This document shows, in pieces, positions 5,917 through 33,814 of a stretch of DNA of 34,995 nucleotides. How positions within the stretch are numbered: the stretch's first letter is position 1; each line of letters opens with the position of its first letter. A program made the translations under genes and the position numbers. Source of the stretch: Chloroflexota bacterium (GTDB taxonomy: Bacteria; Chloroflexota; Dehalococcoidia; Lucifugimonadales; Lucifugimonadaceae); the NCBI GenBank assembly GCA_022564545.1, contig JADFLG010000014.1, positions 1-34,995 on the forward strand, given 5' to 3'. The notes under the pieces are model-generated. The model was not told the DNA's origin. It saw nothing but the letters and a program-made list of their open reading frames with translations, and made no database searches.

Positions 5917-6155
5917 GACGCGGGGCGAGTTCTACCTTGCACAACGATCACTCCGTGCTTCCGAAACAAAGCGTCCTGACACCTGATTCACGAGTGGCAA
6001 TCAGCGGCACCGCCAACTAATCGGGTGATCGTGCCCCGCACATTCCAGCAGTTCTGCTATCTGTGACGACATAGCCAGAGTTTATGGGCGAATTGGCGCG
6101 TCGGCCCTGGCGATTTTCTGGCGTTTACCCCGCATCCGACCGTTATCCTTCTTCG

Positions 6156-7019
6156 ATGCCAGTTTCCCGAATAGTCTTCCTGGGCACCGGCACATCGGAA
6201 GGTGTGCCGCGAGTCTCATGTCTGACCAGGCCAGACCATGTGTGCAAAGTCTGTACCGATGCGATCAAGCCGGACTCACGTAACCGGCGGCGAAATACTT
6301 CCCTGTTAATTCAGCGGCAACTGGACGACGGGCGAACCAGCAACATCGTCATCGACGCTGGAAAGTTCTTCTATGAGGCGGCAATGCAGTGGTTCCCAAA
6401 GTACTCAGTCTCGACCATCGACGCTCTTGTACTTACCCACTCCCATGCGGATGCTGTAGGCGGCATGGACGACCTGAGAGACTGGACGAACAACGCCCAG
6501 GAATCGCTCCCGATCTATCTGAGAGAGTCCGACTTGCAGAACGTTGAGTCGCTTTTTTACTACCTGGTCGATCGCAACAGGCAGACCGGTGGTGGCGGGG
6601 TGGCCAGGCTCATTTTTAAAACGATCGATGCCAATCCCTTCATGATCGACGGACTGGAAATGATTCCCCTGCCGGTCGAGCATGGCCGGGGTCACGAGGT
6701 ATTCGGCTACAGGTTCGGGCCAGTGAGCTACATTTCAGACGCCTCGGAAATATCAGATGCGACAGCCGAACTCGTCGCGGGTTCAGAGCTGCTGGTCCTG
6801 GACGCACTTCGGCCCACTCGCACGCACGGTACCCATTTCACAGTCGAAGAGGCTGTCGACCAGGTGCGCAGGTTGCGCCCGCAAAGAACTCTGCTAACGG
6901 ATGCCACGCACGATATCGACCACAATTCGGTGAACGCCGCGTTGGCGAAACTCAAGGACGCCGAGGGTCTCGATATCCAGTACGCCTACGACGGCCTGGA
7001 AGTCGAGATAAAGCTGTAA
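6156..7019 (+). CDS. Metallo-beta-lactamase-fold hydrolase, PhnP-like
   Basis: Cytoplasmic binuclear-metal hydrolase of 287 residues. It opens with the strand RIVFLGTGTSEGVPR, followed by Cys22, Cys30 and Cys33, a cysteine cluster like the structural zinc site of PhnP. The metal motif is LTHSHADAVGG (His95, His97, Asp99), with further candidate ligands in PVEHGRGHE, YISDAS and the C-terminal DATHDIDH. PhnP hydrolyses cyclic phosphodiesters; relatives act on other phosphodiesters, so the substrate is open. The frame is open from 6084, but the family begins right at MPVSRIVFLG, so I take the ATG at 6156. No Shine-Dalgarno sequence is visible. The gene stands alone between the nucleotidyltransferase and a scarred intergenic region. 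Confidence 0.8.
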   Translation: MPVSRIVFLGTGTSEGVPRVSCLTRPDHVCKVCTDAIKPDSRNRRRNTSLLIQRQLDDGRTSNIVIDAGKFFYEAAMQWFPKYSVSTIDALVLTHSHADAVGGMDDLRDWTNNAQESLPIYLRESDLQNVESLFYYLVDRNRQTGGGGVARLIFKTIDANPFMIDGLEMIPLPVEHGRGHEVFGYRFGPVSYISDASEISDATAELVAGSELLVLDALRPTRTHGTHFTVEEAVDQVRRLRPQRTLLTDATHDIDHNSVNAALAKLKDAEGLDIQYAYDGLEVEIKL

Positions 7020-7604: not shown

Positions 7605-9194
7605 TCACTCGTCGTGTGACCTGATCACGCGACCGGGCCTTTTACCGGTTGTCTTTCCGTCGCTGACGACGGGAGTGCCGTTCACCAGGACCTGTTCTAT
7701 ACCTTCTGAATACTCGTGGGGACGTTCGAACGTGGCCGTGTCCCGCACATCGGAAGGATCGAACACGACAACGTCTGCGAAATAGCCCGGCACCAGTCTT
7801 CCCCTGCGTGTAAGGCTCAGCCGCCCGGCCGGTAGTGTCGTCATCTTGCGAATGGCCTCTTCGAGCGAGACCAGTCCCGTTTCGCGAACCCTCGCAAGGA
7901 ATCTTGGAAATGTCCCGTAGCTGCGGGGATGCGGCTTGCCGGCGCTCAATGGACCGGTCGCCCGCAACGAGCTTCCATCTGAAGCGATGGCAACCGAGGG
8001 TGCAGCGCTGATCCGGTCTACGTCTTCCTGGACCATCCCAGTGATAACAAGCTGGGCATCGAATTTTTCGTAAAGTCTCGCAAGCGCCTCTGCCTCACCA
8101 CATCCCATATCGCTGGCAACGTCAGTAAGGCGTTTCCCCTCCAGGGTCGCATCCGGCGCATAGTTCGCGATCGCGACCTGGGCGGGACCCGTGAACTTCG
8201 CAAACGATTTTTCCAGATCGGCCACTATTTGCGCGCGGAGGTCGGCGTCCTGCAGTCTCTTCAACGCCTCATCTCGGCCACCCTCCAAAGCCCAGCGGGG
8301 GAACACGTTGCCGCTCATTGGCCCACTGGCCGACACATACGGATAAACGTCCGCCGCCGCGTCGATTCCATCGGCCTTCGCTTCCTCGATCATTTCGAGA
8401 AGTTTGCCCGAGCGACCGCGCATCGGGCCATTCGCCTTGAGGTGTGACACCTGAACCGATGCCCCCGTCCTGCGACCGGCTTCCAGCGCCTCCATCGTTG
8501 CGACGAAAAGACCGGGGCCCTCGGTTGACGAATCGCGCATGTGAGTCGAATAAAGCTTGCCCCGGTCGGCGGCGATCTGGACCAGGTCGAACACTTCCCC
8601 CGCAAGCGAGTAAAAGCCTGGTGCCATCGAAAGGCCTGATGAAAACCCCAGGGCACCGGCGTCAAGGCCCTCCGCAACGAGCGTTTGCATTTGCCTGAGT
8701 TCACCGGGACCGGGGGCACGTGTGTCCATGCCCATGACGGCCCTTCTTACGGTGCCGTGCCCTACCTGCGTTGCAATGTTCAGCGTCGAGCCGTTTTTGG
8801 CTAACGCGTCCAGGAAACCGTCGAAGCCGGTCCAATCTGGTGCCCACTCGGTGTCGTACCAGGCCTTGCGCGTTTCTAAGTCGGAACCCGAGTCTCCGAT
8901 CAGCGGGGCGCAAAAACTGATGCCGCAGTTGCCCACATACTCAAAGGTCACGCCCTGGGTAATCTTGCTGTCTGCGTCGGGGTCTACAAAGAACGAAAAA
9001 TCTGCATGGCTGTGCAGGTCGATAAAGCCGGGAGCAACGACCTTGCCGGTGGCGTCGATCGTTCGACGCGCTTCCCCTTCTATCGGCTTGCCAATGGCAA
9101 CTATCGCGTCGCCGGCAATCGCCATGTCTGCCGGGTAGCCCGGAGTTCCGCTCCCGTCGATCAACATGCCACCACGGATCACGACATCGAACAA
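7605..9194 (-). CDS. N-acyl-D-amino-acid deacylase (D-aminoacylase family)
   Basis: Zinc amidohydrolase of 529 residues that removes the acyl group from N-acyl-D-amino acids or D-residue dipeptides. Sites expected from D-aminoacylase are present: GFIDLHSHADF (His61, His63), VGNCG (Cys90, bridging ligand), YSTHMRD (His218), QVSHLK (His251) and the catalytic aspartate in IASDGSS (Asp406). The C terminus has the usual PGYFADVVVFDP amidohydrolase strand. No signal peptide, so cytoplasmic. The TTG start directly follows the oppF stop codon (TAATTG), with GGGAG about 8 nt upstream, so it is the last gene of the transporter operon. The context suggests it deacylates or cleaves compounds delivered by that transporter. 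Confidence 0.87.
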   Translation of the reverse strand: MFDVVIRGGMLIDGSGTPGYPADMAIAGDAIVAIGKPIEGEARRTIDATGKVVAPGFIDLHSHADFSFFVDPDADSKITQGVTFEYVGNCGISFCAPLIGDSGSDLETRKAWYDTEWAPDWTGFDGFLDALAKNGSTLNIATQVGHGTVRRAVMGMDTRAPGPGELRQMQTLVAEGLDAGALGFSSGLSMAPGFYSLAGEVFDLVQIAADRGKLYSTHMRDSSTEGPGLFVATMEALEAGRRTGASVQVSHLKANGPMRGRSGKLLEMIEEAKADGIDAAADVYPYVSASGPMSGNVFPRWALEGGRDEALKRLQDADLRAQIVADLEKSFAKFTGPAQVAIANYAPDATLEGKRLTDVASDMGCGEAEALARLYEKFDAQLVITGMVQEDVDRISAAPSVAIASDGSSLRATGPLSAGKPHPRSYGTFPRFLARVRETGLVSLEEAIRKMTTLPAGRLSLTRRGRLVPGYFADVVVFDPSDVRDTATFERPHEYSEGIEQVLVNGTPVVSDGKTTGKRPGRVIRSHDE

Positions 9195-10283
9195 TTATTT
9201 CTCTCCCGACGCTGGAGATCGTTCACGAGTGGAACGGTTGTACCAGTCGCCTCTTATGCAGGCGGCACGCTGGGTGCCCCGCACCAGGCGTAGTTCTGGA
9301 ACTTCATTACTGCACTCTTCGATGGCGATCGGACACCGGGTGCGGAACACGCATCCCGACGGCGGGTTCAGCGGGCTGGGGATATCACCCTCCAACACGA
9401 TGCGGCTGCGCTTGCGCTCCAGTTCCGGGTCGGCCGTTGGCACAGCCGATAGAAGCGCCTTTGTATAGGGATGTTGCGGACTGTTATACAGCTCGTCTAT
9501 CGACCCGGTTTCAACTATTTTTCCCAGATACATCACAGCTACGCGATCACTGATATTGCGTACCACCGAAAGGTCGTGAGCAATAAAGATATAGGCCAGC
9601 CCGAACTGCTCTTGCAAATCCTTGATCAGGTTGATCACCTGGGCCTGTATCGATACGTCGAGCGCGGAAACGGGCTCGTCGAGGACCATCAAGTCCGGTT
9701 TTGCGGCAAGTGCCCGAGCAACGCCGATCCGCTGCCGCTGGCCCCCGGAAAACTCGTGGGGATAACGTCCTGCCATCGTTGGGTTCAGGCCCACCAGGCG
9801 CAGTAGTTCCGCGACTCGTCGCCGGTATTCGCTCTTGGTCGAAGTCAAACCATGTATCTTCAGCGGCTCCCCTATCAGGTTTCCCGCCGACATACGGGGA
9901 TTCAGCGAACCGAAGGGGTCTTGAAACACCATTCCGATGCGGCGGCGCATTTGCCGCAGTTGCAGCCCACGCGACTGGGTGATGTCCTGTCCATCAATTA
10001 AAATCTCGCCCGCGGTCGCATCCTCCAGCTTGAGAATCGCCCTGCCGATCGTAGTCTTGCCCGACCCACTCTCTCCAACCAGCCCGAGCGTTTCTCCCCG
10101 ATACAGCGAAAGGTTTACGCCGTCCACCGCCTTTATTACGCCTACCTTGCGCTGAATGATGAAACCCTTTTTAACAGGGAAGTGGACCTTCAGGTCCCGC
10201 ACCTCCAGCAACGGCGATCTGCTGTCGCGGTCGAGCGAGTTGCCCTCGGTCTCGGGGTCGCTCCGCGTGGCTGCGACCGTCAA
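9195..10283 (-). CDS. Dipeptide/oligopeptide ABC transporter ATPase, OppF/DppF type
   Basis: ATPase subunit of 362 residues energising peptide import. Walker A is GESGSGKT at about residues 70-77, the signature is FSGGQRQR, Walker B plus D-loop is [12 protein letters not shown], and the H-loop is IAHDLS. The C-terminal oligopeptide-ABC extension contains the [14 protein letters not shown] cysteine segment typical of OppF/DppF. The frame is open far upstream, but that part overlaps oppD. I place the start at the TTG at 10283, which overlaps the oppD stop in a TTGA arrangement and has AGGAG 6 nt upstream. That implies translational coupling to oppD. Confidence 0.88.
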
Positions 10284-11287
10284 ACGGTCACTCCTGGCAG
10301 ATTCCTGGCGACCCGCTCGTGCTCCCAGCACGCGCCGTAATGCAGATCGCCAACTTCGACCAGTTCCGGATCTTCTTCCTGGCACCGCTGGACGGCGTAG
10401 TCGCAACGGTCCACGAAGGCACAACCCGGGGGCAGGTCGGCCAGATTGGGTATCTCGCCCCTGATTGGTTCGAGCCTCGCATCCGCGTCCAGGTCCAGCG
10501 TCGGCACCGAATTCAACAGCCCGACGGTATACGGGTGTTTCGGGTCCTTGTACACGCTGTCCAGGCTTCCGGTTTCACGGATCCTTCCCGCATACATCAC
10601 GTTCACCGTATCGGCGTAGCGGGCAACAACACCCAGGTTGTGGGTGATTATTATCACGGCAGTCCCAATCCTGTCCGTAAGGTCCTTGATGATCTCCAGT
10701 ATTTGCGCCTGAATCGTGACGTCGAGCGCGCTGGTGGCCTCGTCGGCTATCAGGAGCGTTGGCTCGCAACTGAGCGCCATTGCGATCATCACCCGCTGGC
10801 GCTGGCCCCCGGAAATCTGGTGCGGGAAGGAATTGAGCCTGGTTTCGGGATCGGGCATTCCGACCAGCTGCAGCAGTTCCGTCGACTTTCTAAGCGCCTG
10901 GTTTTTTGTCATTCCCAGGTGGAGTTCAAGTGGCTCACGCAGTTGCCTGCCGATGGTGAGCACCGGATTGAGCGAGGTCATCGGCTCCTGAAATATCATG
11001 CCGATATCGCGCCCTCGTACGTTGCGCACTTCCTGTTCCGACATGGTGAGCAGGTCCTGACCACGAAATATGATTTTGCCAGCCACAATTCGGCCTGGAG
11101 GGGACGGAACAAGACGCATTATCGACAGTGCTGTGACGCTCTTGCCACATCCGCTCTCGCCAACCAGCCCCAGTGTCTCGCCTTCATGCAGAACAAAAGA
11201 GACGTTGTCGACGGCCTTGATCACGCCCAGGCGGGTGCGGAAATGGGTAGAGAGATTTTTCACGTCCAGCAGTGTCTCAGCGGTCAT
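10280..11287 (-). CDS. Dipeptide/oligopeptide ABC transporter ATPase, OppD/DppD type
   Basis: Partner ATPase of 335 residues. Walker A is GESGCGKS (43-50), the Q-loop lies in [12 protein letters not shown], the signature is SGGQRQR (from about 159) and Walker B is LLIADE (178-183). The following ATSALD has Ala where most family members have Pro-Thr; this is not expected to abolish activity. The C terminus holds the oligo_HPY-type cluster [14 protein letters not shown], cysteines that bind an iron-sulphur cluster in some Dpp/Opp ATPases. ATG start. A small lipoprotein gene lies 85 bp upstream and oppF overlaps its end. Confidence 0.9.
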
Positions 11288-11372
11288 CTACTCGCTCCGA
11301 GAATGTTCAGGACGAACCAGATAGTTGCCATATATGACCGGCTCATTTCCGGCCTCATTGAAACTCGGGTAC

Positions 11373-11969
11373 TCAAAAGCCGATTACCACTCTGCAATCT
11401 TTGAGTGTCAGCACTCTATTTTCGGAATCCCAGGTATCAATCGTTCCGACTACCGAGTTGGTACCGTCCGGCGTGAACCTGCGAAGTTCAGCTTCGGTGA
11501 TGATCTCGAAAATACATGTGACCCGCCCAAGCCCTGCCTTGAAGCTAACGTAAGAATCGCCCGCTGCGTCGTTGCCAGCTTCCAGAACATCTCCCTGCAC
11601 CACGAACTGTTTGCCGATTTTCTGATTCGCCGTCTCGGGCGTTTTCCGGAACTCACGCTCAAGGTCTCTTGCACTTGATCGCGGGTACTCATCGAAAGAC
11701 AGTTCGTCTACGAGCCTGCCCGTTACTTCTTCGTCAATTGTCCTGTTGGGCGGCGTGGGCGTCGGGCTCGCCGCTACTTCGTTCGCTGCCGAAGGTGTTG
11801 GAGTCGCCGTCGTCGCCACAAGGGGGGCTCCCATTACGGGTTCAGCTTCACCCGGAGTGAGTTCGATAAAAACCGGCCCGGTACCGGCAGGACTATCGTC
11901 TGACCCTCCGCAACCGGAAAAGCCTGCTGCGAGAACAATCAACAATATTGACGCTATCACTCGGTACAT
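11373..11969 (-). CDS. Small lipoprotein with OB-fold (tRNA_anti-like) domain
   Basis: 198-residue predicted lipoprotein. A hydrophobic signal (residues 4-16) ends in the lipobox GFSGC with Cys20. A Ser/Thr/Pro/Ala-rich linker of about 70 residues containing two TPTP motifs follows. The C-terminal 90 residues read as a compact domain (GKQFVVQGDV, VTCIFE, VVGTIDTWD, LTLKDCRVV) resembling the tRNA_anti-like OB-fold family of exported proteins, which is not evidence of RNA binding. It sits between oppC and oppD, an unusual place for a lipoprotein that is not the binding protein, with 75 and 85 bp gaps. It may be an accessory part of the transporter or an unrelated insertion. Function unknown. 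Confidence 0.75.
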   Translation of the reverse strand: MYRVIASILLIVLAAGFSGCGGSDDSPAGTGPVFIELTPGEAEPVMGAPLVATTATPTPSAANEVAASPTPTPPNRTIDEEVTGRLVDELSFDEYPRSSARDLEREFRKTPETANQKIGKQFVVQGDVLEAGNDAAGDSYVSFKAGLGRVTCIFEIITEAELRRFTPDGTNSVVGTIDTWDSENRVLTLKDCRVVIGF

Positions 11970-12044
11970 ATGCGACTTACCTGACGGGAGGAGATCGTCT
12001 CTTGATTTTTCAATAAATAATACCCGCGTCGAGATTTTCGACCC

Positions 12045-12974
12045 CTACTCTTCTCCGCGCAGTCGAGGGTCCAGCACATCGCGAAGTCCGTCCCCAACCA
12101 GGTTTGCCGCGAATACCGTCAGCGCAAGAAATATGCCGGGGAAGAATGCTATCCAGAAAGCCGTCCTTATGAATGCGCGCCCCGAAGAGATGATATTGCC
12201 CCAACTCGGGATAAATTCGGGTGTGCCGACTCCCAGGAATCCCAGTGCAGCCTCCGTAAGAATTGCGCCACCGAAGAATATAGATGCCTGGATGATCACG
12301 GGCGCCAGCGTATTGGGCATTATGTGGAAAAAAAGAATGCGCTTGGTACTGGCCCCAGACGCGCGCGCAGCGTCAACGTAGGTCCGCTCCCGCAGGCTTA
12401 GTACCACTGCTCTGACCACTCGGGTCATAACGGGAGTATCGACGATCGCGATGATCATAATGACATTGGTGAGGCTGCTGCCCAGGGCTGCCACAAGGGC
12501 CAGTGCGAGTATCAAAGTTGGGAACGACATCATGCCGTCCATAAAACGCATGACTATATTGTCGGCAACGCGGTTATAGCCGACGACAACACCCAGTGTG
12601 ACGCCAATAACGGTGACAATAATGGCCACACCGCCACCAACGTACAACGATGTTTTTGTACCGTGAACAGTGCGCGAGTACACGTCTCGACCAAGCGTGT
12701 CTGTACCAAACCAGTGCTCGGCAGATGGTGCGTTGACCCGATCGATCAACGCAAGTTCCGTAGGATCGTAGCGCGCAACCAAGGTCGCCGTGGGAAGTAT
12801 GGTCAGTATGGAGATCACGACCATGAACGCGATGATCGTCAATCCGAACAGCAGGTTCGGATTCGAAAGCATGGTGCTCCAGCCGGTAGCTACCAATTTA
12901 CGAAGGCGAACACCGAGAGGAGGATCTTCGTAAATATCCACCGCCGCAATGGTCCCTTCGGTACCGGATATCAA
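12045..12974 (-). CDS. Dipeptide/oligopeptide ABC permease, OppC/DppC type
   Basis: Inner-membrane permease of 309 residues. The N terminus (about residues 15-36) has the OppC_N pattern before the first helix. A periplasmic segment with HWFGTDTLGRDVYSR precedes the five-helix binding-protein-dependent permease core. The EAA loop that contacts the ATPase reads EAALGFLGVG, and the C terminus LVGDGLRDVLDPRLR is a family hallmark. The start is a TTG directly after the oppB stop (TAATTG), with GAGG about 6 nt upstream, so translation is likely coupled. Confidence 0.9.
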   Translation of the reverse strand: MISGTEGTIAAVDIYEDPPLGVRLRKLVATGWSTMLSNPNLLFGLTIIAFMVVISILTILPTATLVARYDPTELALIDRVNAPSAEHWFGTDTLGRDVYSRTVHGTKTSLYVGGGVAIIVTVIGVTLGVVVGYNRVADNIVMRFMDGMMSFPTLILALALVAALGSSLTNVIMIIAIVDTPVMTRVVRAVVLSLRERTYVDAARASGASTKRILFFHIMPNTLAPVIIQASIFFGGAILTEAALGFLGVGTPEFIPSWGNIISSGRAFIRTAFWIAFFPGIFLALTVFAANLVGDGLRDVLDPRLRGEE

Positions 12975-13916
12975 TTAGAGCCTCACCCTCGGATCGAAAA
13001 ACACGTATGCCAGATCGACCATTAAATTAATAAACACGTAAAGGGACGCGAGCAACATAAGCATTGACTGGACCACAGGGAAGTCACGATTTTTGACCGT
13101 CTCAGCGACCAGTCTCCCAAGACCTGGGATGGTAAATACCGTTTCGGTGACCACCACGCCGGTAATCAACCCACCGGCCAGGGCGCCAATTACAGTGATT
13201 ATGGGGATGGCGCCGGCGCGTAGCGCATGCCTGAACAACACCGCCCTGTTCGCCAGTCCTTTGGCCCTGGCCGTCCGGATATAGTCTTCTCTGAGAACCT
13301 CAAGAATTGAGGCACGGGTCATGCGGATGATTATCGATGAACCGCTAATGGCCAGCAGTGATACAGGCAGCGTAATCGACCGTATCCAACCCGTGAAACT
13401 TTCTGCAGGCGACACATAACCGATTACCGGAAACCATCTCAAGTAAACGGCGAATGCCAGGATCATTATGAAACCCAGCCAGAACCCCGGTATGGAAATG
13501 CCCAGTGCCGCAAAGATCTGGATCACCCGGTCCCAGCGAGACCCGGCTTTCCACGCTGCGAAAACGCCCAGAGGGATGCCGATGAGCACCGCAAATAGTC
13601 CGCCAAGAACCGTCAGGCTTATCGTCGGTCCCACCCGGGTCCTGACAAGTTCTGCAACCGACTTGCCGGAATATATCGACCTTCCGAGATCTCCCCGCAA
13701 GGTACGGCCAACCCACTCAACGAACTGAGTGGCAATCGGCTTGTCCAGCCCCAGTTCTTTGCGGATTAGCTTCACGTCATCCGGACCGGCGTAGTCGCCT
13801 GCCATGATATTGGCGGCGTCTCCCGGTGCTATATGCACCAGTGAAAAGGTCAGGACTCCCACAAATATCAAGATGGGGATGACGGCCAGCACTCGCTTGA
13901 TGATGTACGCAGTCAA
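12975..13916 (-). CDS. Dipeptide/oligopeptide ABC permease, OppB/DppB type
   Basis: Inner-membrane permease of 313 residues. It begins with the typical first helix MTAYIIKRVLAVIPILIFVG and the periplasmic signature HIAPGDAANI, followed by the motif KELGLDKPI. The EAA-type loop region (around residues 200-260) includes VLREDYIRTARAKGL. The C terminus YVFFDPRVRL is diagnostic of OppB/DppB. The start is TTG with only a weak ribosome binding site. It pairs with oppC as the second half of the channel. A strong RNA hairpin lies between it and the upstream binding-protein gene. Confidence 0.9.
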   Translation of the reverse strand: MTAYIIKRVLAVIPILIFVGVLTFSLVHIAPGDAANIMAGDYAGPDDVKLIRKELGLDKPIATQFVEWVGRTLRGDLGRSIYSGKSVAELVRTRVGPTISLTVLGGLFAVLIGIPLGVFAAWKAGSRWDRVIQIFAALGISIPGFWLGFIMILAFAVYLRWFPVIGYVSPAESFTGWIRSITLPVSLLAISGSSIIIRMTRASILEVLREDYIRTARAKGLANRAVLFRHALRAGAIPIITVIGALAGGLITGVVVTETVFTIPGLGRLVAETVKNRDFPVVQSMLMLLASLYVFINLMVDLAYVFFDPRVRL

Positions 13917-14050
13917 CTAAAGGTCCAAATCATACTGAGTGAGCACATTGTCTAAATCTAACGCTCATCGCCATCACCGAATCACGCGTTTTAGTGAATA
14001 TCCGGCAGGCAGGCCTGCACAAAACCGTATGTAACGTACACCGCACACCG

Positions 14051-14084
14051 ATTTGCGGCGGGGCCCGTGAGCCCCGCCGCAAAT
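14051..14084 (-). promoter_or_regulatory. Intercistronic 14-bp hairpin after the binding-protein gene
   Basis: Arms 14051-14064 and 14071-14084 form a perfect 14-bp GC-rich stem around a 6-nt loop, 36 nt past the stop codon of the binding protein and 134 nt before oppB. No U-tract follows, so it is more likely an mRNA-stabilising or partial-attenuation element than a full terminator. Such hairpins commonly raise the binding protein above its permeases. Confidence 0.7.
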
Positions 14085-14120
14085 GCTATCAACTACTTAC
14101 CGGTCAGAGGTCAGAAGCGT

Positions 14121-15848
14121 TCAGTTCGACCGCCAGGCGTTGTAGACGTTGACCGGCATGCTGAATAGCGTTACCGATCCCTCGATGTTTGCACGAATAC
14201 CCATGGTCCCGAACGTGTCGCCGAAGGAAATGTACGGTATGTCTTCCCAGAAGACATTCTGCATTTCCTTGACTATGGCGAGCTGTTCAGATGCCGTGGT
14301 TGCACGCGCCAGTTTTTGCATTCCTGCAGTCATTCGACCCGACTCGTCCTGGTACTTGTTCCAGTACTTGTTCTTGGCCAGTGAACTGTTCAGCAGCGGG
14401 TTAGCGGCCCATGCCCCACCACCGGCAGTGTGGAAAACGTCCCAGAGCTCAGGCTTTTCACGCCAGTTCGTCTGGGTTGCCCAGTCGGTCTGCTTGAAGA
14501 TGACGTTGAAGCCCATTTCCTCAAGTGTCTGACGGGAAATCTCTGCCGGGCCAGCGAACCTCGGGCGGTCTCCGGCCTGGAGGACGATAATGTCGGTACC
14601 AACAAGACCCAGATCTTTAATGATCTGCTTGGCCGCCTCAAGTCCGCCGTTGTCACGGTAGTTGTAGATACCTTCCGAGCCATCGGCGAATCCACCCCAT
14701 TTGCCTGCGCACGCCATCATCGACGGGCAAGTCGTCCAGAAACGCTCGTCGCCGACAGCCGCTCGCAGCGCATCCTCGACCGGGTAGGCCATTGCGAATG
14801 CACGGCGAACCCTTACGTCGGTGAACGGACCTTCCACGTTGTCAATCCACGCGCCGTCACGTGTAGAGCTGTTGGTGGCAATCCGAATGTCCAGGTCAGG
14901 GTTCGCTCCCAGAGTGTCAACGATGTCGCCCGGGATACCGCGCGAAATCAAGTCAATCTGGCCAACCTCTAACGCAGCAATCTTCGCGTTCTCGTCCGGA
15001 ATTACCACGTAGTCGACGGTGTCGAAGAACGCATCCTTACGACCTGCCATGAACGATCCAGCGGAGTCGGCCGGACTGTAGGCCTCGTAACGCCGCACCA
15101 GCAGGTGGTCGCCGGGAACCCACTCGACAAACTCGTACGGTCCGGTCCCGATCATTACCTCCGCGCCCTCAGCAGCCGGGATGTTGTACATCTCTGGCGG
15201 CATGATGACCGGGGCGTACCCGCCAATGCGGGCCATGCCTTCGAGCACCAGCGCTGTCGGCTCAATCATATCGACGGTAAAAGTCAGCTCGCCGGTCGCG
15301 GTCACATCATCGATGAAACCGAAAATTATCGAGCCGTAGTTGTCACGCTCTGCCCAACGGGACCACGAGTTGACGGCATGCTCCGCCGTAAGCGGGACCC
15401 CGTTGTGGAATTTGATCCCATCGCGGAGCTTGAAACTCCACTGCAGACCATCGTTGCTCACCGTCCACGAGTCCATCAGCAACGGCGTCGCGATCAAGTC
15501 CCGATTGTACGCAAGCATGCGCTCCTGGACCGCGAACGATATCTCGTACGCCGTCGTGCCGGTCGTCCGATGGATATCCAGTGTTGTGATCGCCGCGCCA
15601 AGGGCTACTCTCAGCTCTCCGCCGAACCTTTCGTCAACCCGAGCGGGTGCCGCTGCATCGGATGGTGCCGCGGTGGCAACGACGATTTTTTCGACCTCAC
15701 GGGTGACTTCTACCTGGACTTCCCTTTCGACAATGACTGTCTCAATAACCGTCGTGACCGTATCGCTGCCACAGGCCACAGCGAATACGATCGTGAGCGG
15801 CAACGCGAGCAACGCGTAACGCCCAAACTTTCGTAAATAACGATTCAT
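14121..15848 (-). CDS. Peptide/substrate-binding lipoprotein (SBP_bac_5 family)
   Basis: Extracytoplasmic binding protein of 575 residues feeding the downstream Opp permease. The leader is basic (MNRYLRKFGRY) and hydrophobic, ending FAVAC with lipid-anchor Cys26. A Val/Glu-rich segment (VETVIVEREVQVEV) and an Ala/Pro linker form a stalk, as often seen in Chloroflexota binding proteins. The body shows SBP_bac_5 features: WSFKLRDGIKFHNG, GTGPYEFVEW and VRRAFAMAYP. The frame is open 92 codons further upstream, but the ATG at 15848 has AGGAGG 7 nt upstream and begins the signal peptide, so it is the start. It is first in a seven-gene minus-strand run and divergent from the acylase gene. Ligand unknown. 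Confidence 0.9.
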   Translation of the reverse strand: MNRYLRKFGRYALLALPLTIVFAVACGSDTVTTVIETVIVEREVQVEVTREVEKIVVATAAPSDAAAPARVDERFGGELRVALGAAITTLDIHRTTGTTAYEISFAVQERMLAYNRDLIATPLLMDSWTVSNDGLQWSFKLRDGIKFHNGVPLTAEHAVNSWSRWAERDNYGSIIFGFIDDVTATGELTFTVDMIEPTALVLEGMARIGGYAPVIMPPEMYNIPAAEGAEVMIGTGPYEFVEWVPGDHLLVRRYEAYSPADSAGSFMAGRKDAFFDTVDYVVIPDENAKIAALEVGQIDLISRGIPGDIVDTLGANPDLDIRIATNSSTRDGAWIDNVEGPFTDVRVRRAFAMAYPVEDALRAAVGDERFWTTCPSMMACAGKWGGFADGSEGIYNYRDNGGLEAAKQIIKDLGLVGTDIIVLQAGDRPRFAGPAEISRQTLEEMGFNVIFKQTDWATQTNWREKPELWDVFHTAGGGAWAANPLLNSSLAKNKYWNKYQDESGRMTAGMQKLARATTASEQLAIVKEMQNVFWEDIPYISFGDTFGTMGIRANIEGSVTLFSMPVNVYNAWRSN

Positions 15849-15893
15849 TTTCGATCCTCCTATTGCACTGATGCACGGTTCAGAGCACGGCAT

Positions 15894-15922
15894 ACCATAC
15901 TCTACGAATCGTAAATCAACAA
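15894..15922 (-). promoter_or_regulatory. Candidate sigma-70-type promoter of the transporter operon
   Basis: On the minus strand TTGTTG, 17 nt, TATGGT lies 45-75 nt upstream of the binding-protein ATG in the 86-bp divergent region. Spacing is ideal and the hexamers match 3 and 4 of 6 consensus positions. The same short region must serve the acylase operon in the other direction, so one regulator site could control both. Confidence 0.4.
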
Positions 15923-15934
15923 CAATGAGAACAT

Positions 15935-18394
15935 GTGATGCGGCGCAATATCGAAAGACCCGGAATGTCGGACCGAGATGAACGGCGTAATCTGATCGAT
16001 ATTTTGCGGAGCGATCACCGTGATCCGCAAAATGCCGTGTTCGAAACGGACGAAAACTTCCAGACTGGGATAAAGCGATACCTGGAATCGAAACTCCCCG
16101 CACAGCTGCTAAAACAACGGGCACCGGGTCACGGAGCGACGGTCATCCGCGACCGGTTCGGGGTGCCCCACATATTCGCCGAAAACCCGGACGATTTATG
16201 GTTCGCGAGCGGATATGTCCAGGCCCAGGACCGTTTGTGGCAAATCGACAATCGGCATCGCGTCGCTACCGGCACACTGGCAGAGGTCGTTGGCAGCGAG
16301 GCCCTGCACGGAGACCTTGAGAGTCGAACGATTGGCTTCGAACGCGCTGCCCGCCTGGAGTTTGCCGATATAGATGATCGGGCCGGTTCGGCGTTGGAGG
16401 CATATGCACGCGGCGTGAACGCCTGGACCGATGTGGCCATTGACAATTTACCTGTCGAATTTGAGGTGTTGGGGTACGAGCCGGGAGAGTGGTCGCCGAT
16501 CGCCACCCTCGCTGTACTGCGAGAATTCTGGTGGTCGCTAACGGGCCGTCTGCACCAGATCGTGGGTGCGGAGCGCGTCTTGCGCGATGCGCCACCCGAC
16601 GTTGCCGACAGATTCCTTACACCGGAAGTGACGGAATATATTGTGCCCGGTCATCTGGATTCCGATGGGAGCGTGCCTGACGGCGGGGGTGGTGAAGGAG
16701 GTGGCGACGATGGCACCGGATCGAACAACTGGGTCGTAGGCCCGTCCCGTTCCAGAACCGGCCTGCCCTTACTGGCGTCCGACCCCCACTGGCCCATCCA
16801 TTTTCCCGACCTCTGGTACGACCAGCACCTGATCGGGCCCGGTGTCGACTGCATTGGCGCTGCCTATGCGGGTGTCGGTCCCATTGTTTTCGGACGCACA
16901 CGCGAGGCCGCCTGGGCACGCACCAACAACGTCTCCTCCGTTCGGGACCTGTATCACGAACGATTGGATCCCGACGACCCTTCAAGGTACATCGATGGGA
17001 CAACCTCGGTCCCTTTCGAAATTATCGAAGAGACAGTTCATGTCAGGGGTGGAGAAGTTTCTAACTTGAAGATTCAACTGACCCGGCGCGGCCCTATAGT
17101 GAACCAGTTCATTCCACCGATCGACTCAGGCGGCGATGGACCGGTGTCGCTAAAGTGGGTCGGTCACGAGCGAATCGGCGATTTTAGTTCGCTCATGGCC
17201 CTGAATCGCGCCCGGTCTGCCGATGAAATCAAGCGGGCGCTATCCGGGTGGAGGTTATCTGTCTGGAACGCGGTTTACGCCGACGATGCCGGGAACTTCG
17301 GATACCAGATGAGCGGCGCGGTGCCGCGGCGCGGGCGCATGACTCGCGGCACCCGTGACGCCTCTGGTGTAGAAGACCAGTGGCGCGGTTACACCGGTAC
17401 CGATTTACTGCCCGGTCTGCGTAATCCCGATCGAGGATGGGTCGCAAGCGCCAACAACACTCCGGCTCCGGTATCGCTGCTGGGGGAAATTACCGGCGCG
17501 TACGCAGACGGCTACCGGTTCAGACGGATTGGGCAGGTCCTCGGCAAGGGCGACCGAATGACTCCAGCAGACGTCAGGTCTTTGCAGTGGGACAACTTCG
17601 ACCAGCGGGCATCCGAACTGAAAGGTCACGTAGTCGACCTTTTGCAATCGGGGGGCGAGACAGACTGCCTTCTCGCTGCCGGAGCGCTCACATCGTGGGA
17701 CTGTCGTTTCGAAGGTGATAACGCTGGCCCCGCGGTGTGGACTGCGCTGTGGTCGCGATTGTCGAAGGCAGTGGGCGCGGCCCTGCTCGGTTCTTCGGCC
17801 GCAGAACTCATGGCCGAATCGGCGGGAGCGGTCGTCCGCTCTCTGCTATTGGGCGAAGAAAATCCACGTGATTACGGTCTCGACCTTCTGGACCTGGTGA
17901 AAACAGCAGCCTCCGATGCGTTGAGTTACCTCCGGCAGGCCCTCGGGCCAGATATTTCCGACTGGGGCTGGAATCGCGCTCACCATGTGAGCCTGGATCA
18001 TCCCGCAGCCCGCACGGGCGCAATGAAAAAACTTATGAACCGCGGGCCGTTTTCGTGTCCGGGCGGCGGTGGCGTGGTGAACAACCGCCGTCCAATCGAA
18101 ACCCCCCAGGGGTTTGTGAATGCCAGCGGGGTCAGTTACCGGCTATTCGTAGATATGTCGGAGCCAGGCAGGGCATGGGCCGCCTCCCTGGCCGGACAGT
18201 CCGGGCAGCCCGGCAGCGATCACTATGATGACCGGGTGCAGGAGACTTTGAGGAACGAGTACCATCCGCTTTTGATGGACAGGGCGGAAATCGAGAGGGA
18301 GGCCGTGCACGAGTTTGTCGCCCCGGCCGATGACTCAAGACAGGACCACAGACACTCGTTAATTTGCGAACCGACGCTGGGCGGCGGTGAGTAA
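15935..18394 (+). CDS. Penicillin acylase-family Ntn hydrolase (cytoplasmic)
   Basis: N-terminal-nucleophile amidase of 819 residues. Family members (penicillin G acylase, AHL acylase, cephalosporin acylase) cleave acyl-amide bonds after self-processing. The alpha-chain region has RDRFGVPHIFA (72-82) and ASGYVQAQDRLWQ (91-103). The cleavage point reads GTGSNNWVVG with nucleophile Ser263, preceded by a flexible Gly/Asp-rich linker (about 245-262). LLASDPHWPIH and ASANNTP follow at the usual places for the beta-chain His and oxyanion Asn. No signal peptide is present, whereas classic members are exported, so this enzyme probably acts on imported substrate. The start is GTG at 15935, with ATG at 15965 possible. 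It leads a plus-strand operon with the next two genes. Confidence 0.85.
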   Translation: MMRRNIERPGMSDRDERRNLIDILRSDHRDPQNAVFETDENFQTGIKRYLESKLPAQLLKQRAPGHGATVIRDRFGVPHIFAENPDDLWFASGYVQAQDRLWQIDNRHRVATGTLAEVVGSEALHGDLESRTIGFERAARLEFADIDDRAGSALEAYARGVNAWTDVAIDNLPVEFEVLGYEPGEWSPIATLAVLREFWWSLTGRLHQIVGAERVLRDAPPDVADRFLTPEVTEYIVPGHLDSDGSVPDGGGGEGGGDDGTGSNNWVVGPSRSRTGLPLLASDPHWPIHFPDLWYDQHLIGPGVDCIGAAYAGVGPIVFGRTREAAWARTNNVSSVRDLYHERLDPDDPSRYIDGTTSVPFEIIEETVHVRGGEVSNLKIQLTRRGPIVNQFIPPIDSGGDGPVSLKWVGHERIGDFSSLMALNRARSADEIKRALSGWRLSVWNAVYADDAGNFGYQMSGAVPRRGRMTRGTRDASGVEDQWRGYTGTDLLPGLRNPDRGWVASANNTPAPVSLLGEITGAYADGYRFRRIGQVLGKGDRMTPADVRSLQWDNFDQRASELKGHVVDLLQSGGETDCLLAAGALTSWDCRFEGDNAGPAVWTALWSRLSKAVGAALLGSSAAELMAESAGAVVRSLLLGEENPRDYGLDLLDLVKTAASDALSYLRQALGPDISDWGWNRAHHVSLDHPAARTGAMKKLMNRGPFSCPGGGGVVNNRRPIETPQGFVNASGVSYRLFVDMSEPGRAWAASLAGQSGQPGSDHYDDRVQETLRNEYHPLLMDRAEIEREAVHEFVAPADDSRQDHRHSLICEPTLGGGE

Positions 18395-18451
18395 ACAGCC
18401 AGACGCCAGAAGGTTAGATAGCACTTGACTGGAACCGGCTGGTGAAATCAG

Positions 18452-19621
18452 ATGAAAATTGAAGAGCTACAGATAGACATCGTAGAACTTGGGTCCCTTG
18501 CACCCGAGTGGCGGCCCCTGCGGCAAATGCAGGAGTACCCGGATTCTCACCGCGTCAAGTTCACACACAGGCCGTTCGAAGGGGAGGGCGTGACGGGCCC
18601 GCCAACCCCAGCGTACGCCGCGATCCTGCGCATACAGACCGCCGATGGCATCGAGAGTCCCGGCGTGCTCTGGTCGTCGTGGGGCCGGGAACAGCTGGAA
18701 TGGGACGCCCGCACTTTCAAGGTCCAGTGGGCACCCGAACTGGTGGGGGTGAACGCGCTCGACCGAGAGTACATCTGGCACAAAATGTGGATGGCCCGCC
18801 GCTATTTCCACATGCCTTCAACCGCGCCGCTGGCGCTGATCGACGAACTGCTGTGGGACCTCGCCGGCCAGAAGTCTGGCCTGCCTGTGCACAAGCTACT
18901 GGGTGGATTCCGGGACAGGATACCTGCCTACCTGACGGAAACCGCAGTCTCGTTCGATGAGGCACTGGTATCTGCCAGGCGCGCCAGGGAACAGGGTTTT
19001 CACGGATTCAAAGATCATTCAATACTCGGCGTCAAAACCAACATCGAACTGGCGCGTGAACTTCGCACGGTCGTTGGCGACGATATGGTGCTGATGCACG
19101 ACCCGGTCCAGCAGTACACGGTGGACGAAGCGATCAGGGTCGGAAGAGAACTGGAAAAACTCGATTACCTGTGGATCGAGGAGCCGCTGCAGGAATCGGA
19201 CCTGCATGGCCTCAAGCGTCTTTCCGACGCCCTGGACCTTCACGTCCTGGCGCTGGAATCGGTCCAGGGAGCTCCGTATCTCGCGGTCGAGTACCTGAGG
19301 TCGGGTGCCATCGACATAGTGCGGCAGACCGGGCTCGGCATAACCGGGCAAATGAAGCTGGCGAACCTTGCCGAGATGTTTGGGATCAACTGCCACGGAG
19401 GCAACCCTCACGTGGTGGCTGCAATCAGAAACGACGATTGGTGGGAACATCCTGCATGGCCTGCGACAGCGCCCGACCGTGTGCTGACTGCAGCGACCTC
19501 GGAAATGATTCGCAACACACACCACGTCGAGAACGGATTCATGTACGTCCCGCAGACCCCGGGCCTGGGGCGAGAAATCGACTGGGATCAGATTAACGAA
19601 CGCACGGTGCTGTCTATCTAA
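18452..19621 (+). CDS. Enolase-superfamily protein (mandelate racemase/muconate lactonizing type), atypical site
   Basis: Mandelate-racemase-like protein of 389 residues, full length, cytoplasmic. Capping and barrel domains are recognisable. Metal ligands are read as Asp217 (LMHDPVQQY), Glu243 or Glu244 (LWIEEPL) and Glu269 (LALESVQGA). The usual KxK catalytic pair reads K-D-H (Lys187, His189). The strand normally giving QPD reads DIVRQTGLGITG, so the Asp of the His-Asp dyad is missing, while His315 and His320 lie in NCHGGNPH. This differs from mandelate racemase, muconate lactonizing enzyme and the RhmD-like paralogue at 3427. It lies 57 bp after the acylase and 57 bp before the M28 peptidase. 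Reaction unknown: a dehydratase, racemase/epimerase or altered activity. Confidence 0.78.
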   Translation: MKIEELQIDIVELGSLAPEWRPLRQMQEYPDSHRVKFTHRPFEGEGVTGPPTPAYAAILRIQTADGIESPGVLWSSWGREQLEWDARTFKVQWAPELVGVNALDREYIWHKMWMARRYFHMPSTAPLALIDELLWDLAGQKSGLPVHKLLGGFRDRIPAYLTETAVSFDEALVSARRAREQGFHGFKDHSILGVKTNIELARELRTVVGDDMVLMHDPVQQYTVDEAIRVGRELEKLDYLWIEEPLQESDLHGLKRLSDALDLHVLALESVQGAPYLAVEYLRSGAIDIVRQTGLGITGQMKLANLAEMFGINCHGGNPHVVAAIRNDDWWEHPAWPATAPDRVLTAATSEMIRNTHHVENGFMYVPQTPGLGREIDWDQINERTVLSI

Positions 19622-19678
19622 ATGACCTGCAAACCCGTCTTTTGCACCGGACAAAAAACTTGAAACGGAGATTCGAAT

Positions 19679-21061
19679 ATGACCGTTGATTGGCCCTCTG
19701 CCGAAAGTTCCCTGATGGGCAACGCATGGGTCTGTTCCCGGGCGAACGACCACGTCAACATGCTCTGTGACTCGATCGGGGTGCGCTGGGGTGGCTCCGA
19801 GGGAGAGCGGCGTGCGGCTGAATACATCAGGTCTCGTTTCGAGGAATATGGTCTTCAGGAAACCTCGACCGAGGAGTTCGAGGTCGATACATGGGAGGCC
19901 ACGTCCTCATCGATATCGATCGACGGTGAAGACGACCGAATTCTTGATGTTCGACCCAGCCTGTTCTGTCCGTCAGTCACCGCAACGGCGCCGATCGTAG
20001 ATGTCGGCTTCGGGATGGCACACGAGGTCGGGCCGCTAACGGGGAGGTTGGACGGCGCGATCGCCCTCATTTCAGGCGCATACGAACCGTTTTCTCCGCC
20101 TGAATCGCTGACAATCAGGCTCGAACGGCTCGCCACCCTTGGAGTTGTCGCGTGCATTACACCTTACGCAGCCGGGGGCCGACGCACGTCGCACGGCCAC
20201 GCGGGCGACTGGCGTGACGACGACCCGAACACGGTGTCGTTGCCGCTTGTCCATACCTCGCGCGAAGACGGGGCGCTGCTGGCACGACGGGCTGCGTCAG
20301 GTGCCACGGTTACCTTGCAGGTGGATTCACAACGGACCACCGCGACTTCACGCAACGTCATGGGCGACCTGGCGGGTGACATCTGGCCGGATGAATGGCT
20401 GGTCCTCGGTGCACACCACGACACCACGGTCGATTCTCCCGGCGCAAACGACAACGCATCGGGGTCGACCGTGGTGCTGGAAGTCGCAAGACTGCTGGCT
20501 CAACTGAAGCGGGAACAGGGTATCGGTCCCGGTCGTTCCATTCGCTTCGTCACGTTCGGCTCCGAGGAGCAGGGCCTTCAGGGCTCGGCGGCGTATGTTG
20601 AGCGGCACTACGGCCCGGACCCGATGCCGCGGTTAATGGTTAACCTTGACGAGCTCGGAACGGGCTCGATGAAGGGAGTCGTTCTGCAATTTCCTGAACT
20701 CAGACCGCTGATTCAGAAAGAACTGGACGCGATGGGCGAAGGCCTGAAGTGTCACGTGCTGGCACAGATGGACGCAACAGGAGATGGGTTCCCGTTCGCT
20801 CGCAAAGGCATCCAGGCCGCAATGCTGTGGCGCTGGCGGTTTGTCGGTCGACACCCTGATGTCGCATTCGGTCACAGCTCAAGTGACACGGTGGATAAGG
20901 TGCGAATCAGGGAATTGAAGGAATATGCCGGGTTCCTGGCGCGGCTGATGCTCCGTGTTTCACACACAACGCCCGAAGAATGGCCGCAGGAACCGCTAGA
21001 TACCGTAGAGATCAAGGCGCGGATCGCGCAAGAACGCGGCTCCGTTGTAAGGACCATGTAA
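19679..21061 (+). CDS. M28-family zinc metallopeptidase
   Basis: Aminopeptidase/carboxypeptidase-type enzyme of 460 residues with two co-catalytic metals. The metal sites are LGAHHDTTVD (His246, Asp248), GANDNASG (Asp258, bridging), GSEEQGLQGSAAY (Glu296 as general base, Glu297 as ligand), NLDELG (Asp324) and GHSSSDTVDKV (His399). A region between about 90 and 220 resembles the inserted PA-like domain of many M28 proteins. No signal peptide is visible, so it is likely cytoplasmic. CGGAG upstream supports the ATG at 19679. As third gene of the acylase operon it could hydrolyse peptides or acyl-dipeptides delivered by the divergent transporter. Confidence 0.85.
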   Translation: MTVDWPSAESSLMGNAWVCSRANDHVNMLCDSIGVRWGGSEGERRAAEYIRSRFEEYGLQETSTEEFEVDTWEATSSSISIDGEDDRILDVRPSLFCPSVTATAPIVDVGFGMAHEVGPLTGRLDGAIALISGAYEPFSPPESLTIRLERLATLGVVACITPYAAGGRRTSHGHAGDWRDDDPNTVSLPLVHTSREDGALLARRAASGATVTLQVDSQRTTATSRNVMGDLAGDIWPDEWLVLGAHHDTTVDSPGANDNASGSTVVLEVARLLAQLKREQGIGPGRSIRFVTFGSEEQGLQGSAAYVERHYGPDPMPRLMVNLDELGTGSMKGVVLQFPELRPLIQKELDAMGEGLKCHVLAQMDATGDGFPFARKGIQAAMLWRWRFVGRHPDVAFGHSSSDTVDKVRIRELKEYAGFLARLMLRVSHTTPEEWPQEPLDTVEIKARIAQERGSVVRTM

Positions 21062-21348: not shown

Positions 21349-22644
21349 TCAGATCAGGCCTGCCGCCCGCACCGCGTGCAGCCCCGCCTCGTAGCCGCTT
21401 ACCGTCTCGTCAATATCGGCGTCACTGTGCGAAGCCGACAGGATCATCGAAGCCGGATGCGTCCAGAGGCCTTCATTAATGATGGCGAGCTGGAGTTGGT
21501 CGAGGACTTCGGTCGAGACCGGCCTGCCGCCCTGCTCGACCCCGGCCGGAACGGCGTGCGGGTCATCGGTGTCCACCGGGGTGCCAAGGCTGACCATCGC
21601 TATCGAGGAAACCCCGTAAGCCCCACCGGGGATTTCCATCGATTGGAGCACCTTGTTGATGCCCGCCTTCAGCCGGGTGGCCTGTTTATCCGCCGTTTTC
21701 ACAATCGGATCGCGTTCCACAATGCCCAGAGCAGCCTTGCCCGCGGCCGCGCAAAGGGGGTTCGCGTTAAACGTGCCGGGATGCCTGATGCCCCCTTCTC
21801 CCACAGTATCGACCACATCAGCCCTGCCGCCCACGCAACCGCCGGGGAGCCCACCGGCCAGGATCTTGGCAAATGCGCTCAGGTCCGGAGTTACCCCGTA
21901 GCGGCCCTGGCATCCGGCATTCGACCAGCGGAACCCGCTGACAACCTCGTCGAAAATCAGCAAGACGCCGTGCGATGCAGTCAGTTCACGCAATCCCCGG
22001 ATAAATTCGGGAGGCGCAATGTCGTTCCCCTGGAAGACCACCGCTGCGACATCGTCACGGGCCACGAGAATCTCGTCCAGTGCATCGAGGTCGTGCGCGG
22101 GGGTGTTGATCACCGTCTCGCTCGTGCCGTGGGGAATGCCGTATTGGCGGTCCGTCTCCGGGTCCGTCACGTAGGCCGGGTCGGACCAGCCATGGAATGC
22201 GCCTGCGAACTTGACGATCTTCTCTTTGCCGCTGAACACCCGGGCCATCTTGAAAGCCATCATTAGTGCTTCGGTGCCCGAGGCCACGAACCGCAGTTTT
22301 TTCACCGATGGGACCAGCCTGATCACGGCCTCGGCCCACTCCACCTCCAGGCGGGTACCGGAACTCAGGTGAGTTCCCTTCGTCATTTGTGACTGGACAG
22401 CCTCGACGATCGCGGGATGTGCCTGCCCGAGGATCATCGACCCGTGGCCGGTCTTGTAGTCGATGTACTCGTTGCCATCGACGTCCCACTTGCGGGGCCC
22501 GCTGCCCCGTTCCATATAGACGGGGTACGGCGACATGGCGCGACCCACATGCGTCACGCCGTGTGCGAACAGGGCGTTAGATTTTTCTGCCAACGGCTTT
22601 GATTCGGGGTGTAGTTCCAGGAACCGGTCTTCAATGCTGGTCAT
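21349..22644 (-). CDS. Class III PLP aminotransferase (glutamate-1-semialdehyde-mutase-like)
   Basis: PLP-dependent class III aminotransferase/aminomutase of 431 residues. Key elements are ASGTEA (121-126, phosphate binding), AFHGW (149-153), FDEVVSGFR (Asp232 to the pyridine nitrogen) and AFAKILAGGLPGG with Schiff-base Lys260. The pattern is that of glutamate-1-semialdehyde aminomutase relatives, but no other haem gene is nearby and many proteins of this type are catabolic omega-aminotransferases, so I do not call it hemL. GGAAG lies about 9 nt before the ATG. It is downstream of the NHL gene in the same direction after a 233-bp gap, so it may have its own promoter. Confidence 0.85.
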   Translation of the reverse strand: MTSIEDRFLELHPESKPLAEKSNALFAHGVTHVGRAMSPYPVYMERGSGPRKWDVDGNEYIDYKTGHGSMILGQAHPAIVEAVQSQMTKGTHLSSGTRLEVEWAEAVIRLVPSVKKLRFVASGTEALMMAFKMARVFSGKEKIVKFAGAFHGWSDPAYVTDPETDRQYGIPHGTSETVINTPAHDLDALDEILVARDDVAAVVFQGNDIAPPEFIRGLRELTASHGVLLIFDEVVSGFRWSNAGCQGRYGVTPDLSAFAKILAGGLPGGCVGGRADVVDTVGEGGIRHPGTFNANPLCAAAGKAALGIVERDPIVKTADKQATRLKAGINKVLQSMEIPGGAYGVSSIAMVSLGTPVDTDDPHAVPAGVEQGGRPVSTEVLDQLQLAIINEGLWTHPASMILSASHSDADIDETVSGYEAGLHAVRAAGLI

Positions 22645-33777: not shown

Positions 33778-33814
33778 TGTCATTGCGGGCATATTACTCA
33801 ATTAAGTGTGATTT
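33778..33814 (+). repeat. Left terminal inverted repeat
   Basis: 37 bp from TGTCATTGCGGGC to GTGATTT. It matches the reverse complement of 34842-34878 at 36 of 37 positions; the only difference is A at 33791 against T in the other copy. Confidence 0.9.

Follow-up and report, generated by a model that had tools for sequence, protein, structure and literature searches.

SAR202-type Chloroflexota are discussed in PMC6946804 as consumers of resistant dissolved organic matter. One cause proposed there for this resistance is chiral complexity, with the expansion of enolases as the proposed tool. As described in PMC6946804 and PMC10444878, the mandelate-racemase family is expanded in SAR202 groups I and II, and the latter source reports that cultivated SAR202 strains exist. 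For the S45 (penicillin-acylase) family, PMC11241749 names a signal peptide as an element of the precursor and lists a D-succinylase from Cupriavidus sp. P4-10-C. Here, we describe a gene island in a 34,995-nucleotide stretch of DNA (hereafter the window; contig JADFLG010000014.1 of assembly GCA_022564545.1) from the draft genome of an uncultured SAR202-type Chloroflexota bacterium (G000; 2.9 Mb, 195 contigs). The island holds about 15 genes, is patchily distributed among relatives, and looks like a kit for the import and intracellular breakdown of acylated or D-residue peptides.

On the minus strand, genes for a binding protein, OppB, OppC, a lipoprotein, OppD, OppF and a D-aminoacylase-type deacylase (DAA1) follow in this order, and the plus strand encodes an S45 acylase, an enolase-superfamily enzyme (ENO2) and an M28 peptidase (Table 1). 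All ten genes named in the initial annotation of the window are open frames where it had placed them, and nine of these core genes match the expected Pfam families above cut-off, the exception being the 198-amino-acid lipoprotein. The genes carry intact catalytic motifs, are conserved as a unit and co-occur even where they are unlinked. A joint function of the island genes is likely. Whether they form one import-and-dismantle catabolic unit for an acylated or D-residue peptide-like compound we regard as an even call, and the N-acyl/D- peptide chemistry predicted for this unit is somewhat better than a guess.

In order to follow the island across genomes, we queried an order-level sample of 247 genomes (250 for the acylase query). 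The binding-protein query detected nine of the 247 genomes (E ≤1e-140), with orthologs at 62-76% identity in the eight genomes other than that of the window. The M28 query detected 38 of 247 (E ≤1e-80), of which nine, at ≥58% identity, group together as orthologs, the next being at 52%, and these nine are exactly the genomes that have the binding protein (G000, G002, G016, G019, G025, G030, G059, G098 and G152). In seven of them (G000, G002, G019, G030, G059, G098 and G152), the M28 and Opp genes form one contiguous block; G016 cannot be judged, as its contig ends. The two halves thus belong together, as had been proposed from the window alone. Acylase orthologs were detected in six of 250 genomes (E ≤1e-140), and in a seventh, G098, the gene is cut by the contig edge and just its end is present. 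In a class-wide draw of 393 genomes, an acylase ortholog was found in just two, both previously in the set. Gene content is kept between genomes while gene order is reshuffled, and the cluster arrangement is more than chance, because orthologous clusters exist in other genomes. All counts given here include G098 (nine genomes with it, eight without), although it should not be taken as independent: the contig that carries its cluster (C146; loci L040/L094) matches G016, which belongs to another family, at 88-92% DNA identity and was likely misbinned or recently transferred.

The borders first drawn around the island (7605-21061) were too narrow. A class-III aminotransferase gene (AT3) belongs to the set in all nine cluster genomes, a DUF1800-DUF1501-NHL module lies within the cluster in six of nine (G000, G002, G016, G030, G059 and G152; about 20 kb away in G019), and a linked second deacylase-like gene (DAA2) is also present in three (G000, G059 and G152). 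For AT3, we examined 30 genomes, namely the nine cluster genomes and 21 chosen for lacking the cluster, of which 16 are the remaining members of the genus and five come from the family. AT3 was detected in 9/9 versus 0/21 (E ≤1e-100) with identities of 66-100%, and G098 has a further copy at 46%. The probability of this distribution by chance is 7e-8 if genomes are independent; since they are related, this value is a rough guide. In G019, G025 and G030, AT3 lies away from the other cluster genes, and therefore proximity does not explain the shared distribution. Within the window's genus, the set is present in three of 19 genomes, namely G000, G002 and G016; because presence is this patchy within genera, gain or loss seems to have struck the gene set together, rather than simple descent having shaped its distribution. 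The main branches are shared by the trees of the binding protein, M28, AT3 and OppB, with distance correlations of 0.84-0.96 (without a control gene), an agreement that could also be obtained from plain vertical descent.

These distributions bear on the possibility that two or more independent modules (Opp with DAA1; acylase, enolase and M28; DUF1800-DUF1501-NHL) are neighbours in a variable region and share no common substrate. DUF1501 relatives (E ≤1e-60) occur in 27 of the 30 genomes, with the cluster or without it and often several per genome, and the DUF1800-DUF1501-NHL module is therefore, by this comparison, a looser partner of the cluster. The acylase and the enolase are each absent from the cluster in some genomes, and ENO2 is present without the cluster in other phyla, both of which would fit independent modules. 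We nevertheless consider this explanation quite unlikely, given that the binding protein, M28 and the aminotransferase, which is partly unlinked, have an identical nine-genome distribution and that the gene trees agree.

For a single catabolic unit, we infer an intracellular site, an N-acyl/D- chemistry and the following order of steps. The binding lipoprotein and the Opp-type ATP-binding cassette (ABC) importer would bring an acylated and/or D-residue peptide-like compound into the cell, where the signal-less S45 acylase would cut an N-acyl amide bond, the M28 enzyme would trim the peptide portion and the D-aminoacylase-type enzyme would free an N-acylated D-amino acid. The class-III aminotransferase would then convert the released amino acid to a keto acid, and the probable target of ENO2 is a hydroxy- or sugar-acid portion of the imported compound. 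The predicted signals would fit intracellular breakdown, being absent from the acylase and M28 and present on the binding protein and the lipoprotein, and the solved relatives of the acylase and DAA1 give a hint of N-acyl-D-amino-acid chemistry. The proposal of the initial annotation that N-acylated or D-residue compounds are imported and dismantled is in keeping with these relatives, a D-succinylase and N-acyl-D-amino-acid deacylases, whereas no specific support was found for the acyl-homoserine lactones and beta-lactams that it had listed as substrates. In its fullest form, which we regard as doubtful, this reading would give SAR202 bacteria a patchily inherited pathway dedicated to N-acylated D-residue peptides, which would be taken up from dissolved organic matter and burned. 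If true, organic nitrogen that is chirally protected in the sea would be reached by a defined set of enzymes, namely a relative of penicillin acylase that works in the cytoplasm, a D-aminoacylase, a transaminase handling D-amino acids and an enolase of new specificity.

The acylase matches the S45 family profile with 574 bits (cut-off 21.3) over profile positions 2-674 of 675. Gly262-Ser263, His285 and Asn507/508 are invariant in 4/4 sequences, and the Gly-Ser pair represents a predicted autocleavage site with Ser as the N terminus of the beta-chain. Here and for DAA1, M28, ENO2 and AT3, conservation was computed and the catalytic roles of the residues are those we take them to have. The first start codon is a GTG at 15935, and an invariant Met at residue 11 of the alignment suggests a start at 15965. 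As the initial annotation had pointed out, the protein lacks a signal peptide: its best 15-residue hydropathy mean is -0.13, so that no N-terminal hydrophobic stretch was seen in this simple and crude hydropathy test. A signal peptide is usual in the family, although membership does not require it. The test likewise revealed none in 20 related acylase frames (0.09 to 1.05; frames read from the homologous start, which is uncertain in L037), and the missing signal therefore looks like a trait of SAR202 acylases generally, not of the window gene alone. By both sequence and profile, the best solved relative is D-succinylase (PDB 7ea4 and 7eby; 185 bits versus 122 for the next kind, and 206 versus 134 with the profile), an enzyme that cleaves N-succinyl-D-amino acids. 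As a separate observation, other SAR202 S45 acylases (a group at 31-43%) share a conserved N-terminal extension of about 45 residues (LxRLGxGxxI...AGMSxxEFxxWW) before the acylase domain (L035:1-819, L036, L041-L052 and L074:18953-20000; for example L044:279-2657). This extension resembles a helix-turn-helix by eye; in the single sequence scanned against Pfam, the match to HTH_72 had an E of just 0.19.

The best solved relatives of DAA1 are the N-acyl-D-glutamate deacylase 3gip and the D-aminoacylase 1m7j. Its metal site (H-x-H, C, H, H, D), which we take to correspond to positions 67, 69, 96, 220, 250 and 366 (H, H, C, H, H, D) of Alcaligenes DA1 D-aminoacylase, is kept in 5/5 aligned sequences including that of the window. 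For DAA2, the nearest solved structure is also D-aminoacylase. In 4/4 DAA2 sequences, the positions presumed to be C96 and H220 in D-aminoacylase numbering hold an Asp and a non-His residue, respectively, and the D-aminoacylase metal site is thus altered. Full-length DAA2 orthologs at ≥62% were found in G000, G025, G030, G038, G059 and G152, and G020 has a fragment at 62%. The gene lies inside the cluster in just three of these (G000, G059 and G152), and G038 and G020 are non-cluster genomes.

Among the Opp proteins, OppF scores 411.8 bits with the NCBIfam model NF008453 (dipeptide ABC transporter ATP-binding protein), above its subfamily cut-off of 408, and no NCBIfam equivalog cut-off was reached by any of them among the best 25 matches per protein. 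The best profile match of OppF begins at residue 67 of the frame, which is probably longer than the protein, with a predicted true start between about 10235 and 10283. Family-5 binding proteins also take nickel, sugars and other ligands, and the sole solved match to the binding-protein profile at E ≤1e-30 is 8vdx, for which no ligand is named. The lipoprotein, for which no Pfam match above cut-off was found, has an invariant Cys20 in 9/9 aligned sequences and a weak oligonucleotide/oligosaccharide-binding (OB)-fold signal (tRNA_anti-like) in three of the nine, with a best E of 3.8e-7 and the window member below cut-off. The binding protein and the lipoprotein each have an N-terminal hydrophobic stretch, as judged from best 15-residue hydropathy means of 2.55 and 2.63, respectively.

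Enzymes of the mandelate-racemase subgroup have three acidic metal ligands and an Asp-His dyad. In ENO2, K187, H189, D217, E243, E269, D288 and H315 are invariant in 7/7 sequences, and D217, E243, E269, D288 and H315 supply this subgroup motif in an alignment with 1rvk. The nearest solved structures, 1rvk and 4hcd, are named merely isomerase/lactonizing enzyme. N-acylamino-acid racemase, a member of the muconate-lactonizing-enzyme (MLE) subgroup, has lysine bases on either side of the barrel, and this identity was rejected for ENO2 by the motif, which has the Asp288/His315 pair in place of the lysines. Indeed, ENO2 reached no NCBIfam racemase or epimerase cut-off in profile comparisons, the motif being judged without an aligned racemase sequence. 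The mandelate-racemase subgroup fits hydroxy- or sugar-acid chemistry better than amino-acid racemisation. Identities to the window protein of 69-83% in six aligned cluster relatives define a distinct, well-conserved ortholog group. When ENO2 was compared with genome contigs, 26 loci were detected, 24 of them at ≥62% identity. Eight of the 24 are from Chloroflexota, comprising six in the cluster, L098 with NHL and DUF1800 only, and the G019 copy, which lies apart. The other 16 come from Latescibacterota, Gemmatimonadota and one Rhodospirillaceae metagenome-assembled genome, with two genomes giving two loci each. Weak relatives of OppF, NHL and AT3 (27-36%) occur at four of these 16. Other enolases are found near ENO2 in several Latescibacterota and Gemmatimonadota loci. 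The surroundings in these two phyla were rejected as a guide to function, as most of the recurrence of neighbours is between Latescibacterota loci that resemble one another at about 90%.

The mandelate-racemase catalytic set of ENO2 also raises the question of the substrate, which might be a sugar acid in amide linkage or a glycopeptide, with N-acylated amino-sugar acids and muropeptides as examples. In that case, the hydrolases would strip amide-linked parts, and carbon would be gained from the sugar acid via the enolase and HpcH-type aldolases, as modelled on the non-phosphorylative sugar-acid pathways proposed for SAR202. The best NCBIfam matches of ENO2 are acid-sugar dehydratases, all far under cut-off, and the enzyme is distant from every characterised dehydratase model. 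The window genome has 52 places matching MR_MLE_C above cut-off in its 2.9 Mb, in agreement with the published SAR202 enolase expansion, and SAR202 enolase paralogs are linked to sugar and sugar-acid catabolism in PMC10444878. HpcH-type aldolase genes occur near the cluster in the window, G002, G016 and G025 and next to ENO2 in G019; however, a copy close to that of the window was seen only in G025 (72%), the others being at 31-33%. Moreover, no glycosidase, sugar kinase or amino-sugar enzyme was seen among the conserved set. We therefore hold a sugar-acid substrate to be unlikely, while an acylated or D-residue peptide-like compound would still leave ENO2 a hydroxy- or sugar-acid portion to act on.

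M28 peptidases bind their metals through H-D-E-D-H, and these residues are kept in 9/9 sequences of the island enzyme, for which the simple hydropathy test (0.39) indicated no signal peptide. AT3 was rejected as a HemL protein (TIGR00713; 279.5 bits versus an equivalog cut-off of 527.3), and the window genome has a separate true HemL (G000:C168; 535 bits). The nearest solved relative of AT3 is D-phenylglycine aminotransferase (222.0 bits), level with glutamate-1-semialdehyde (GSA) aminomutase (221.6 bits). The AT3 stretch FAKILAGGLPGG, which holds the presumed pyridoxal-phosphate lysine, is identical in 9/9 sequences. For the module further out, solved relatives of the NHL protein are generic propellers, and no solved relative of the DUF1501 profile was found at E ≤0.1. 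G019 has several paralogous DUF1800-DUF1501-NHL modules.

In the initial annotation, both gene halves start from a shared divergent region of 86 bp. This spacing is correct between the binding-protein start (ATG at 15848) and the first acylase start codon, and it widens to 116 bp if the acylase begins at the conserved Met. The region is not conserved as a control point: the binding protein is faced by the acylase in four genomes (G000, G019, G059 and G152), by the aminotransferase in two (G002 and G098) and by ENO2 in one (G030), while in G025 the upstream gene runs in the same direction and in G016 the contig ends there. A promoter scan of 15600-16200 revealed no site (0.4 expected), and no common element was evident by eye in the upstream sequences. 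A divergent promoter was thus rejected as a conserved control element.

Several observations weigh against a single catabolic unit. In G025, M28 and Opp lie on different contigs, so that the separation on unrelated loci that would speak against the initial proposal holds for this one genome, as opposed to the seven with contiguous halves. Nor is the acylase a fixed member, as had been assumed: no ortholog was found in G025, where a 33% relative stands beside a second Opp set, or in G030, which is only 69% complete and has ENO2 in the acylase's place. ENO2 adjoins M28 in seven of nine cluster genomes and not in the other two, being located elsewhere in G019 and not beside M28 in G025. Its orthologs at the 16 non-Chloroflexota loci (65-70%) are unaccompanied by acylase, M28, binding-protein or permease orthologs in the available flanks, several of which are short, and because these loci in other phyla lack the cluster orthologs, ENO2 is predicted to have a role outside the island pathway as well. 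G152 has a second binding-protein copy (L082, contig C110; 73%, in an 830-amino-acid open frame), with no other cluster genes within the 33 kb examined. Since the acylase has distant solved relatives, its substrate class is weakly constrained, and AT3 is equally close to GSA aminomutase. Finally, no regulator or common operator was found, and the reshuffled gene order and separate strands leave joint expression unsupported.

Table 1 Features of the island and its flank in the window.
Feature	Position	Strand	Evidence
DAA1, D-aminoacylase/N-acyl-D-glutamate deacylase type amidohydrolase	7605-9194	-	Amidohydro_3 over cut-off
OppF-type ATPase	9195-10424	-	ABC_tran + oligo_HPY
OppD-type ATPase	10280-11287	-	ABC_tran + oligo_HPY
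Conserved lipoprotein inside Opp operon	11373-11969	-	Alignment of 9, Cys20 invariant
OppC-type permease	12045-12974	-	BPD_transp_1
OppB-type permease	12975-13916	-	BPD_transp_1 + BPD_transp_1_N
Family-5 solute-binding lipoprotein	14121-15848	-	SBP_bac_5 5e-57
Divergent intergenic region	15849-15934	none	86 bp; to 15964 if acylase starts at conserved Met
S45 (penicillin-acylase family) N-terminal nucleophile (Ntn) acylase, signal-less	15935-18394	+	Penicil_amidase 9e-172
ENO2, mandelate-racemase-subgroup enolase superfamily enzyme	18452-19621	+	MR_MLE_C/N
M28 metallopeptidase, without signal peptide	19679-21061	+	Peptidase_M28 over Pfam cut-off
AT3, class-III aminotransferase, not HemL	21349-22644	-	9/9 cluster genomes, 0/21 others
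NHL-repeat beta-propeller protein, without signal peptide	22878-24008	-	Adjoins DUF1501/DUF1800
DUF1501 protein, without signal peptide	24046-25212	-	Family match
DUF1800 protein, without signal peptide	25282-26643	-	Family match
DAA2, D-aminoacylase-like amidohydrolase, two metal-site residues changed	26830-28422	+	Nearest solved D-aminoacylase

Elsewhere in the window, a tRNA-Pro lies at 1079-1153, and a weak match to a Mutator-type transposase, below cut-off, at 33813-34622 close to the window end. A gene at 5338-5916, outside the conserved set, matches an aminoglycoside-2''-adenylyltransferase-like nucleotidyltransferase (PF10706), and a metallo-beta-lactamase-fold gene at 6084-7019 lies near the cluster. 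The presence of these last two genes and the family names of S45 acylases could suggest defence or detoxification against peptide-like antibiotics or signals such as beta-lactams or acyl-homoserine lactones, with the acylase and deacylase inactivating what is imported. Importing a compound before inactivating it would be an odd strategy, however, and the presence of an aminotransferase, an enolase and M28 would point to a nutritional use. In the cluster neighbourhoods examined, moreover, no relative of the nucleotidyltransferase was found, and a relative of the metallo-hydrolase was found only beside the G025 cluster. We consider defence very improbable.

In the literature searched, no paper was found that joins SAR202 with penicillin acylase. 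Judging by the titles and abstract openings of the papers listed, the cluster was not found described in work on SAR202 deacylases, amidohydrolases, peptide transport or D-amino acids, or in work on gene clusters of D-aminoacylase with penicillin acylase and of DUF1501 with DUF1800. The combination, which the initial annotation also did not recognise as a described system, thus seems new, whereas its enzyme families are known. By linking a conserved enolase, a peptide importer and N-acyl-D-amino-acid-type enzymes, the island provides a concrete, testable gene set for the chirality proposal.

Compared with Opp/Dpp oligopeptide importers, the island has the same components, namely a family-5 binding protein, two BPD_transp_1 permeases and two ABC_tran ATPases with oligo_HPY, and differs in the extra conserved lipoprotein gene between OppC and OppD. 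With D-succinylase, the acylase shares the S45 Ntn architecture and Ser nucleophile; in contrast, it is distant, signal-less and located beside an Opp importer, and its activity is a predicted one. DAA1 is alignable with D-aminoacylase and N-acyl-D-glutamate deacylase (1m7j and 3gip) along almost its full length and keeps their metal site, whereas it has a longer stretch than 3gip at residues 290-346, and its substrate is a predicted one. AT3 aligns over almost its full length with the class-III enzymes D-phenylglycine aminotransferase and GSA aminomutase, yet falls far under the HemL cut-off in a host with its own HemL. Like the enolase paralogs of SAR202 groups I and II, ENO2 belongs to the expanded mandelate-racemase family, and it differs from them in that, in SAR202, it is tied to a peptide-import cluster.

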